This document shows, in pieces, positions 27,032 to 42,000 of a stretch of DNA of 64,000 nucleotides (position 1 is the stretch's first letter; each line of letters begins with the position of its first letter). Source of the DNA: Apteryx mantelli (lineage: Eukaryota; Chordata; Aves; Apterygiformes; Apterygidae). The notes beneath the pieces are model-generated. The model was not told the origin of the DNA and searched no databases. It worked only from the letters and a program-made list of their open reading frames with translations. Position numbers and translations under genes: made by a program. The DNA lies in NCBI RefSeq assembly GCF_036417845.1, contig NC_090020.1, positions 35,758,425 through 35,822,424 on the forward strand, written 5' to 3'.

Positions 27032-27061
27032 TTAGAGGGTGTTTTTCTTGTTGCAGCTCTC
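27032..27061 (-). CDS. SEMA4D: SEMA4D soluble-isoform last exon (9 residues)
   Basis: The acceptor is TCTCCTTCAG|GAGAGC. It encodes ESCNKKNTL and a TAA stop at 27032-27034. The human short isoform ends ESCSKDTL as I recall it. The match at phase 0 with the preceding exon makes this tiny exon convincing despite its length. Confidence 0.82.
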   Translation of the reverse strand, partial: ESCNKKNTL

Positions 27062-30000
27062 CTGAAGGAGAAGTTCAGAATGCAGTGTTAATGCAGGTTT
27101 AAAATAAAATGGGTTTTAGAGGTTGCCTATACTATCTATTCCACGTGCAACAAGTACTTGTCATGTCCAAAAGATATCAAAAGTAACCTCTGTTTTAACT
27201 CTTGGACAAAAACATTGAAAGTGACATACAGATTTTTTTTTTTTTTTAAATAAGAAAGGCCAGCTTTGATAGACAATACCAGTTACGAAGTCTGATAGTC
27301 TCTGCAACCCAATTAAAGTCTTACAGATGGAGTCAAATGAATCTACTACGTTCAGTACAAACAGTCTCACCCTTTTCGGCAGTATGATTTATTTCTTACT
27401 GACTTAGCTCTTGGTAAGTGGACAGAAGGAGGAAGCTGACATAATGGCAATACACAAAATAAATGAAATAGGTCTTACTGTTCAGCGGGTCCTTCCAGAA
27501 TGACAACATGCACAGAAACACTGATCCCTTTGTTATACAAATGCTTTCAGTTGCAGAAGTGGCATAGGCCATTATAAAATTAGACTGTAGTGTTATGTAG
27601 AAAGTACAGTATGAGGTATGTATTCCAAAAATTCTTACCCATGTCTTCTTCCAGTTTTGCATCATCTTGTCATGTTCACTGATGGCAGTTCTCCAGCTAT
27701 CAAATTCTTTGGTCCATCCATCCTGACCAGCACTATCTGAAAATTGTAAACAGGATGATTACATAACTAAGTAATAATCAAGTAAGTTGACCTATTCAAT
27801 TGCAGTAATTCTCATAGAAGGCAGGGCTCAAAGGAACAAAAGCCACCATCTCGTACTCTGTTCTGCTCTACCTGTTCTCAAGGTATTTAGAAATAACCTC
27901 TATTCAAACTGTCATGTCTTTTCCCCTCTGCAGCAGACTTTTTAACCTCCAGAGCAAATAACTTTAGTGCCTTTAATCTATGTGTCAAGGTCTAGAAGAT
28001 ATGACCTACCACTTAGAAGAGCTAAATCCATCTAGAAGCACAGGAACATTGCAGTTGGATCATATCAAGGCTGGGGAGAAGAATGACATGATGCTGCTGG
28101 CTATGTTAAGTTTGTTATTTCCCCCTTTTTTGATAATGTTATGTAGCTAGTTATTCTTTGTTCGTCATTTTACCACATCTCAACTTGACAAAGTTTTAGT
28201 TCTAATACCATCTGCCAGCTTTTCTTGCAGTCCCTACTACCGCTGTGGTGCCATACACAGATTTAATAAATATTTTCTATTTATCCTTCAAGACACTAGT
28301 GACAACATAGAATCTTTTGGGTCACAGTGAAAGCAGCCCACTGTTTTACACTTACAGTAGTTTCACTGAGATGCTCTTTGTTCTGCTTCTGCAAGTAACT
28401 TTAAAGTGCCTGGAATACTTGCAAGAAACTATGCAACTTCCTTTGCTGCTTTCTTTTATCTCTGAAAAAAGCTGGGATAAGATGCTCTTGAAAAATTCAC
28501 ATTTGATATTGACCAACTAATTACAAATAATTCATTTTTCTTCCTCCAGAAAATACACTCTATCACATTCGTTCCTCCTCCTCTCTTTTTAAAGACTACG
28601 TATATCCTTCTCCAGGTCTAAGTTTTCAAAAGCTAGTTGCAAATAATGCTGAAGTTGCTTCAGTCAGTTCTGGGTACCCAAAGATGAATTTATCTTGTCC
28701 AGCTGCTCAAGTCAACTAGCTGACTTCCTGCCCATTAGTATCAAAATGAAGAGGTAAGAACTGTCCCCACCTGGCTACAGATGATTTTAAAATCATTATT
28801 TTTTTTTTAAATAGAGGGGAGAGGGCAGGGGTGTCTCTTTATTATTTGACTTCCTTGGCATTAAAGAATTTTTCTTTGTTACCCAGTATAGTTCTTGCAA
28901 AGAATTATTCTTTTATAATCCTCCTTAATACTCACCTGACTTCCAGTATGTCTATTAGTTTTGTGTGAGGTGATGATTTGCCTCAGATGTACTTAGTCCC
29001 CTAAGTTTCTGCAAGACTTTGGTAATAAGTAGCAGTTACCGTTTCATTTCTAGATCATAACTGCTAATTTGCAGGTTAGTTCTGCGGGGGAGGGGAAAAA
29101 AGCAATTTTTATGGCTGTAAAAGCTTTTCATAAGCACTTGAAGGGGGTACATCTCCACCTATGTATGTGTTTTATGGGTGAAATAATTACAGAGCTCTCC
29201 TTGTATCAGCATCAGGACAAACAGGGTATACATTCAGCACCAACCTACCTTTATGTTCAACTGTGATGAGCACTTCCGATGTTGCGTTCCCAACTTTCGA
29301 GACAACCGAGCATTTATATTCTGTACTTTCTGATACTGAATCTTTCACCCAGCTTAGAATATGCAATCTGCCATCAACCAGCATATGAGATTGCTCCATG
29401 ATGCACGCCTTCATCTTTTCTCCGTTCTTCTTCCAGACAAAATGGGAATCATCTGGACCTGTAAAAATGTCAGTCAGCTTACGTTGGGAAAACTACTAAG
29501 ATGAGTCTTTGAATAGAAAACGGAAGACTAATCTTAAAGTCTTAGACTCAAAGGTTGATTGTAATGTTTCTTAGGTTTCTTTAACTGAAATGTTGGGTAC
29601 CAAAAAGCCGAGATAAAAAAGAGCTAACTTTGATAATGAGGTTCAAGCCAAAGTTGTAAATGAGCTCGTAGAAAGGAAGCATCTGGATTTGCACAAGTGG
29701 GAACTCATCCCGCAAACATGATAGACCAGATAATGAAATCAGCACTATCTGCCTGTGTGATCACCTACAAAACTAGGTAATGCTCTCTAGTGCTTGATCA
29801 AGCTAAGGAACAAAGTTGACACCACCTGAGACAGGCGTTGTAAAATCTGAAATAAGGGACAGGAGGGGAAAAAAGTTCAAGAACGCAGTGCATCAAAGAT
29901 CCTGGAACTAATGAAAGCAGCAAAATCAGAAAAAGCACAGAACCATTAGTCACAGCAATTAGGCAAGACAGAACTTGGAAGAAGCTTGGATTAACAACAA

Positions 30001-39000: not shown

Positions 39001-42000
39001 TCTACTATATCTATATTCAACAGAGTACAGGAGAGAGAAATTATAAAGCAGTTCTGTACCTCATCAACTCACTGCCTTTTCCCCTGCACCAGATGGTGTA
39101 GTAGTCTGCTCAATTTATTTCAAACCTGTCTCAAATGTCTTTAAAGTGTTTAAAAATTCTGTAACGCAGACAAAGTTACATTAAAGAAAGTATACAGGAA
39201 ACTTAATATTTGCTAGCGCGTATCTAACAGGTCTTTGGAGACATGTGAAAACATGAGACTTTTCAGGGCAGTAGAGAGAAAAACTGAGAAGCAATTTGTT
39301 AATAGAGCAGATATATTTCTTTCTTTTCAGGAAGGGCAGAGGTAACTCATTCTTAAAAAAACCCCTCTTTTTCCAGAAAAAATAACAAAACATGACAAGT
39401 GGCTGTTGGTGCTGTATCCACTTCAACTTAATGCTGCTGTTGAAAGAAGCCAGTTACAAGGTTGTGAAGTATTATCCTTAGGCAAGCTTTCAGGTTAAAA
39501 CATGTGGGATGAACGAGAGATGAATAACGGAACTATTGCTGAGCTTCCAGACAGCTTGAAGCAGCCATTTATGATCAAGAAAAAGAAGAAACTCAATCCT
39601 CCTCATTAAAATAATGTTAGAAACCCGATTAAAAAAAAAAATAAGGTTCAGTTTTTTGAGCAGAGCATGCAGCAATCTATGTGTTTGCATTATAGAGAGG
39701 GAACCTTACTAAACCACATCCTTTAATCGGAAGACCAAATACGACACTTCAGCTCTCTGCCAGTCTCATTTTACTCTTCTGTTCCTTGCAAACGCATTTT
39801 GTGTTATAATCATTGCTGGGGGAAAAAGTTCCATTAGAGCTATGTTTATTTAAAGAAGTCTCAACAATCAGTGAAGGAATGTGAATAAATCCAAGTAGAG
39901 TGCTTCTTGGTCAATGCGTCTGCTTATCCCCCAAGAATAAATTTATACATCCTCACAGACACATCCCAGAAGGATGCAGAAGGCTCATTTCAGTTTGGTA
40001 TGCTGGATTTTATTTTTATTTTTTAATCAATGGAACAAAAATTGCAATTCTGAGTAAGAGGAGGAGTGTGATGTATCAGCCAAATGTCTCATTTCCTAAA
40101 GAGGATGAAACACCCATCTAAAAGATAAAGTCTAGTGATTCACTGCTTTTTGAGAGACAGTGGAAACCCCTTCCCAGATGACTAATCTCACCCTCCACAC
40201 ATGGGGACGCCTGGTCTCCCTGAGTCATTACTGTACCTTTTGGAGTCTGAGTCCTGTAACAGCTCCTTGCACTACTTGTCCCTACCTTCTGCAGCGGGGA
40301 AATCCAGAGGGTGACTTTAGGACACAGTTCCTTCTGTCTTAAGTTTACTGCCAAGGCAATTACAATTACTGACAATTTTTAAGAAGCAGCACGTGAAAAA
40401 CGTGTTAAAACAGACATTAACAGATACCAAATACACAGATATCACTGCATTAAAAAAGGAAGTAATTTAAAAATAAATTCCTGATCTGTAGCATGATTAT
40501 GAGACTATTTAAATCTCTCTTGCTCCATGAGTTATACTATTATTCCAAATTTTTCTCATGCTGGAAATAAAAAGCTTCTAAGCACCTTGTCTATAGCAGC
40601 AGTGAAGAAATTCTTGTTACAAAACCTGGTCCCACTGTTGTTTTTAGCCATGGAAACACAAACCATACCTTCGTAAAGACATAACATTAATGAAAATTCA
40701 TGCATTTTGATCTGATTCCATGTAACATTTTAAGAATCATAAACATATCAATAAAAAGAAATGTTACTTTTAAAATTAATCTATATTAAACGATTTCAAA
40801 CTTATTCTCTTATTTCAAGGAATAAAGTTACATCTTAAGACCAGTTACATCTTATATCCATTAAAACTCACTTAGCTTAAGCAGACAACTACTGTCCAAA
40901 CAAAAGCTGAAAGAGAAATGTTGATTTTCCATTGAAAAAATAGCTTTGACCTTTGACTGTAGGCCTCAGATAACATTTACTTCATAAAACAAAAGTTATC
41001 ATTACTGTAAGAACTTTACCTTTTAAAATAATTTTAATAATAAAAAAAAGTAACAGACCAGGTCCAGGAAGATAAATGAAATAACAAATCCAATAGAAGC
41101 TGGATTCAACAGAAGTATTTTTAAAACTGTATCCATCCCAATAGCGAAAATATTTCCTTGCTAAGCTTATTCATACTCAATCATGATCCCATGAGTGACT
41201 CGGGCATGGAAGTGAGCCTGCTGACTGTTAACGTACTTAAGCAGGCTGCTAAATCAGAGCCCGTATTTTGCAGTATGCTACTTGCAGCACCCAATTCTGA
41301 AAAGTACTAAACCGCCGACTGTTGCCACAACGTTCGTAACACGTCCCGAAACGGTCACCTTTCACGTCAAACGCGTTCCTCGGGACGCGGCCGCACACCC
41401 AACCCTTTAACACAGAAAGGGATGGCTCGCGCGGGGTCCTCCAACTTACCTGTGGCTTGGCAGAAGAGGCGAAAGGGTCCCCGGACACTAACATGCTGTG
41501 CCTGGTCACTTAGGAAAGGTGGCAACAACATGACCTTTACAGGGTCTGTGCCAGACCAAACGTCAGGCTGGGCACTGGTGGGTGAAGGAGGTGAATCACG
41601 TCCCACACAAGACAAAAAGGAGGTACCAGTAGGAGGGAAAGGTATAGGAGATGAGGCTGTGCGACAGAAGAGGACAGAAAAGAAAAAAAAAAAAGAGGGT
41701 ACTAAGGAAAAAAGTTGCAAGAAATACATCACACACTGAAGAAATAATGCCAAAACACAAATGAATTTTAGAAGGGTAATACAAGGAAATGTCCCTAGAC
41801 TGCCAGGAAAGAACGCTTTCTTCCTTCACCCACGCTCCTTTCTCCATCCTTCTAGTCCCCCACAGGGATATAACCCGTTCAGTTAAAGCTGAAAAGAGAA
41901 TCTATTTCAAATTAATCACAAAAGCTTTCATTTCTCCCCTTAAAGAAAACCACAAGGAACATTAGGGTTTAGAATACAGAAAGCGGTTCTCCTGTGTCAA

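Follow-up and report, generated by a model that had tools for sequence, protein, structure and literature searches.

SEMA4D of Apteryx mantelli very probably has two mutually exclusive 3′ ends, one encoding the membrane form and the other an alternative form that would be secreted directly. The window (the whole stretch of DNA analyzed, 64,000 nucleotides; NC_090020.1, positions 35,758,425 to 35,822,424) carries, judging from its coding content, the 3′ part of the gene on the minus strand. In the proposed arrangement, a 44-nt exon would be joined either to the exon at 47684, which has its own poly(A) motif behind it, yielding a membrane-bound protein that can be shed, or, where this proximal terminal exon is bypassed, to 41656 and from there to 29458, 27736 and 27061. 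The distal product would combine an unrelated I-set Ig domain with a Trp-rich helix bearing a Cys near its end and, with no anchor, would leave the cell by direct secretion; the tail helix would hold copies together, replacing the lost anchor. Regulation would consist of proximal polyadenylation competing with distal splicing. The alternative 3′ end is itself well supported by the sequence, from which we also infer junction use, secretion and the production of soluble SEMA4D by alternative 3′ splicing in birds.

Gene identity and the distal exon chain

Stretches encoding the Sema and PSI domains matched human SEMA4D (1olz) at E 2.4e-66 in a comparison with PDB chains, the next semaphorin following at 1e-19; the query was a concatenation of window stretches including some intron translation, and residues 59-200 and 226-248 of its 253 were aligned. 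The PSI exon, the 44-nt exon and the membrane Ig together matched 1olz at E 1.9e-52, again among PDB chains. These two matches bear out the first-pass annotation, a reading of the bare sequence that had named the gene SEMA4D.

An exon encoding an L7Ae domain was found on the plus strand within 19830-20195, and further plus-strand exons can be read downstream of it up to a stop at 23039. We take these exons to be SECISBP2, the convergent neighbor of SEMA4D. Much of the space up to the convergent neighbor is occupied by the distal SEMA4D exons. The window belongs to an 88-Mb contig of a 1.50-Gb assembly, a size that would suit a bird Z chromosome.

Table 1. Features of the 3′ part of SEMA4D in the window
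Feature	Position	Strand	Remarks
44-nt exon common to both isoforms, just after the PSI exon	48829..48872	-	ends in phase 1; isoform branch point; aligns with 1olz
Membrane terminal exon, coding part	46768..47684	-	encodes the Ig, the stalk, a membrane span and the cytoplasmic tail, up to the stop
ATTAAA, candidate poly(A) signal for the membrane form	46358..46363	-	motif match only; first of either motif after the membrane stop
Alternative exon A	41450..41656	-	phase 1-1; Pro-rich linker and first Ig half (LFCQATG), I-set
Alternative exon B	29249..29458	-	phase 1-1; second Ig half (HFVWKKNG ... EYKCSVV) and one N-glycosylation sequon, NAT
Alternative exon C	27639..27736	-	phase 1-0; encodes the greater part of the amphipathic, Trp-rich helix
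Alternative exon D, coding part	27032..27061	-	ESCNKKNTL and TAA stop
Two overlapping AATAAA, candidate poly(A) signal for the distal form	26179..26188	-	motif match only; ~845 nt after the stop

The 44-nt exon and exons A to D (44, 207, 210, 98 and 30 nt; Table 1) are all preceded by AG, and the first four are followed by GT. Their ends fall in phases 1, 1, 1 and 0, then the TAA is reached, and the joined peptide is 195 amino acids long; in both remaining frames the joined sequence is interrupted by many stops. The earlier claim that five exons chain in phase to a TAA was thus borne out in its coordinates, AG/GT borders and phases. As scored with an approximate matrix of typical splice-site frequencies rather than a trained program, the acceptors of A, B, C and D lie at the 98.9th, 97.4th, 94.4th and 99.2nd percentiles among 9289 AG sites and the donors of A, B and C at the 99.9th, 99.5th and 98.0th percentiles among 6780 GT sites, with the acceptor and donor of the 44-nt exon at the 99.9th and 99.6th. 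The acceptor at 41656 is accordingly strong, as had been stated, and exon C, which has the poorest splice sites, is the weakest link of the chain. The frame of exon C also remains open downstream of the donor; a stop at 27396 ends it and AATAAA comes next at 27393, so that another tail is possible. Poly(A) motifs are frequent on the minus strand between 20000 and 47700, where 16 AATAAA and 13 ATTAAA were counted.

Open cassettes with phase 1 at both ends were counted between 24000 and 46300 (60-300 nt, both splice scores at least equal to those of the weaker Ig exon). Three were present on the minus strand, two of them exons A and B, and none on the opposite strand of the same interval. The third (30045-30179) was taken as background, its peptide having no Ig features by eye.

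A genome search with the joined peptide returned 12 matches at E up to 10, three of them the source exons A, B and C themselves, with no internal stops; the nine others had E of 0.17 or worse (25 candidates scored). Exon B alone matched only itself in the genome. No second copy of the alternative exons was found among the best candidates scored in the 1.5-Gb genome, and no relatives of exon B were confirmed in collections of genome contigs (41 pattern stretches) and viral contigs (8).

The alternative Ig domain and the tail

Residues 70-150 of the joined peptide matched the Pfam I-set profile with 27.1 bits against a gathering score of 23.7 (E 4.4e-6), in agreement with the first-pass proposal that a complete Ig-like fold is rebuilt across the exons. 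Taken singly, with split codons omitted, exon A (69 residues) had no Pfam match at E up to 10, and exon B (69 residues) scored 18.9 bits, under the cut-off; the profile thus passes its cut-off only when A and B are joined as proposed. The nearest relatives found by sequence in the PDB were Ig domains of titin, LRIG1 and LAR, with whole-sequence E of 2.1e-8, 1.3e-7 and 1.8e-5 and much poorer best single-domain E of 0.31, 0.026 and 0.002. Matches to these three proteins draw on repeated Ig domains.

Semaphorins were absent among the best 60 of the 67 PDB matches to the joined peptide, and over 61 residues the alternative Ig shares 28% identity with the membrane Ig encoded by this gene (E 0.35). 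On these figures the idea that the alternative Ig arose as a recent copy of the membrane Ig was rejected. Exon structure points the same way, since a phase-1 intron interrupts the alternative Ig and the membrane Ig lies within a single exon; the sequences would still allow an old common origin of the two. The I-set domain therefore differs from that of the membrane isoform, as claimed before, and the sole ground for describing it as separately evolving is that the two Igs within this genome have little similarity. Compared with membrane SEMA4D (1olz family), the alternative form has the Sema and PSI domains and the 44-nt exon in common but carries this dissimilar Ig, divided over two exons, and lacks the stalk, membrane span and cytoplasmic tail.

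With a 19-residue Kyte-Doolittle window, no transmembrane stretch was found in the alternative part (best mean 0.79, as compared to 3.06 in the membrane exon, where a membrane span follows the Ig). A GPI signal needs a hydrophobic end, and by eye the alternative tail has no C-terminal end of that type. The distal last exons are thus in frame with the common donor and encode no membrane span, and the view that a compatible phase-1 junction lets the alternative tail take the place of the membrane exon stands. Cysteines are present in the alternative part outside the canonical Ig pair.

In the alignment with 1olz the isoform junction falls at chain position 533, and the alternative tail adds 181 residues. 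With a SEMA4D signal peptide of ~21 residues, the predicted short isoform has ~735 residues, and the previous size estimate of about 730 was sound. The human short isoform, UniProt Q92854-2, has 738 residues, nearly equal to the length predicted for the bird form, and its tail has, to our knowledge, no membrane span.

The 42 residues encoded by exons C and D, four of them Trp, constitute the predicted Trp-rich tail ending ESCNKKNTL. Core places 0, 4, 7, 11, 14, 18, 21, 25 and 28 are occupied by W, F, W, I, H, M, W, W and C, a regular 3-4 heptad series whose last place is the Cys near the tail end. A heptad core of 8/9 was reached by 18 of 20000 shuffles, one of 7/9, with Ala and Cys excluded from the hydrophobic set, by 26 of 20000, and 59 of 20000 attained the helical moment computed for the core's 29 residues; these counts are flattering, as the core and heptad pattern were chosen after seeing the sequence. 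The 32 complete codons of exon C were predicted from the single sequence to fold as one helix (residues 2-31, pLDDT 92.5), short helices being easy to predict. An amphipathic helix with heptad-spaced Trp is thus predicted in the tail. The heptad-patterned Trp-rich tail with its Cys is new here, no discussion of the tail having been found in the SEMA4D literature among the matches listed.

The acetylcholinesterase T peptide (WAT, 1vzj) likewise has Trp seven apart, a W-x-x-E-F-x-x-W start and a Cys near its end, and according to the available part of PMC5943944 it is, as is the SEMA4D tail, a C-terminal helix from an alternative end exon. However, the SEMA4D tail had no Pfam match at E up to 10, AChE_tetra (PF08674) included, and no PDB match, and its alignment with the T peptide needs a seven-residue gap and is weak, with 407 of 20000 shuffles scoring as well. 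AChE_tetra had five matches in the genome, two of them above the cut-off and both on other contigs, and the tail was not among the five. For want of a profile or PDB match, the tail was not classed as a WAT domain; by analogy, it may work like a WAT rather than be one. The Trp-rich heptad helix with a Cys near its end suggests an oligomerizing device. That this four-heptad helix, with a Cys at its last core place, would be a dedicated oligomerization device resembling the cholinesterase WAT is a tentative reading and a rather doubtful one, drawn from that analogy. If true, direct secretion would give a stable, perhaps disulfide-linked SEMA4D multimer that might dock on a polyproline partner and would differ from the shed form in potency and tissue range.

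Other readings of the distal exons

The four exons lie 5-20 kb beyond the stop of the membrane exon, past a candidate poly(A) motif, and the Ig they encode did not arise by recent copying from that of membrane SEMA4D; they could be taken for a small gene of their own, placed between SEMA4D and the convergent neighbor. This seems very improbable, as exon A has a strong phase-1 acceptor that corresponds to the phase-1 donor of the 44-nt exon but no start codon near its beginning, its single Met lying far inside, and a last-exon SEMA4D isoform is in print for human in the part of PMC8909304 available. It is also highly unlikely that the exons are relics, formerly used and no longer spliced in Apteryx mantelli: the weaker splice sites of exon C would fit such decay, but four junctions and ~180 codons are intact in one frame, and where exons A, B and C were matched in the genome there are no internal stops.

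The isoform might instead be made but kept inside the cell through its KDEL-like K-N-T-L end, or trapped as a misfolded oligomer, and so not act as a soluble ligand. The C-terminal KNTL is faintly like an ER-retention end, minus the Glu of the usual pattern, and the cysteines beyond the canonical Ig pair could favor misfolding. Yet KNTL fails that pattern at its third position and the product has no membrane span, and we regard retention as improbable. Two mutually exclusive 3′ ends, the distal one giving a directly secreted form, would thus remain the preferred explanation.

Human isoforms and the origin of soluble SEMA4D

In the available text of PMC8909304, a human SEMA4D isoform from intronic poly(A) usage gives rise to membrane and soluble proteins in Jurkat T cells and a last-exon isoform to a smaller protein, the evidence being RT-qPCR on polysome fractions and western blot. 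The last-exon protein is not termed secreted in that text. Because the window has a proximal membrane exon with a poly(A) motif and distal exons with another, this isoform pair fits its layout. We take the last-exon isoform to be identical with Q92854-2; as in the bird form, going by the same part of PMC8909304, alternative last exons follow a proximal membrane exon and the protein is smaller. Given the last-exon isoform of Jurkat cells, the alternative form is therefore probably the avian counterpart of a known human isoform.

The accessible portion of PMC9148012 presents both human UniProt isoforms as membrane-bound by deduced sequence and soluble SEMA4D as theorized to come from cleavage. 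For the short form of the bird, the sequence argues otherwise. Elsewhere, judging from the parts of each source available, a review (PMC6016892) notes that the Human Protein Atlas site predicts 13 splice variants for human, PMC13332059 deals with SEMA4D start sites, and the SEMA4D content of PMC11595178 consists of primers only, citing NM_001142287. Among the matches listed, no title or abstract opening described a secreted SEMA4D splice form, PMC8909304 being the nearest.

The interest of the distal exons lies in this conflict in print over the origin of soluble SEMA4D, and in the Trp-rich tail. Soluble SEMA4D is measured in disease, and SEMA4D is a drug target. Its blockade by antibody is cited in the available part of PMC8909304. 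If an anchorless distal-exon isoform exists, in a bird too, part of the soluble SEMA4D would escape the control of shedding; such distal-exon SEMA4D would do without the usual Ig, and a different tail may keep it together.

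Stalk of the membrane isoform and a SEMA4-like paralogue

Human SEMA4D dimerises through stalk cysteine; in the Apteryx membrane exon, the stalk between the Ig domain and the membrane span encodes no cysteines. A SEMA4-like paralogue on another contig of the same genome (L011, G000:C30) shares 42% identity in the Ig domain, and a similar short exon likewise precedes its Ig exon. When the best candidates for genome matches to the alternative module were scored, none of the 12 resulting matches lay on the contig of this paralogue.

Neighbouring gene and intronic element

Exons of an apparent gene convergent with SEMA4D, presumably SECISBP2, were found to encode an L7Ae domain, and ∼4 kb lie between its apparent stop and the distal SEMA4D stop. 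Two long LINE-like frames (729 and 318 aa), which we take to resemble CR1, are placed antisense to SEMA4D in the intron separating the membrane exon and exon A. By domain search, the 729-aa frame carries an endonuclease as well as a reverse transcriptase domain, and a further piece resembling these frames was noted by eye.

Coordinates of the features discussed
Feature	Position	Strand
Membrane exon	46768-47684	-
LINE-like frames	42877-45982	+
Further LINE-like piece	7488-8240	
Open frame of exon C	27396-27758	-
Stop of the exon C frame	27396	-
AATAAA	27393	
Exon D, coding part with the distal SEMA4D stop (TAA)	27032-27061	-
Apparent SECISBP2 exons	19830-23039	+
Apparent SECISBP2 stop	23039	+

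Possible readthrough of exon C

The exon C frame stays open beyond its donor for ∼80 codons, and a motif match places an AATAAA on this strand just past the stop at which it closes. Judged from sequence, readthrough of exon C is a possible alternative, unspliced end.
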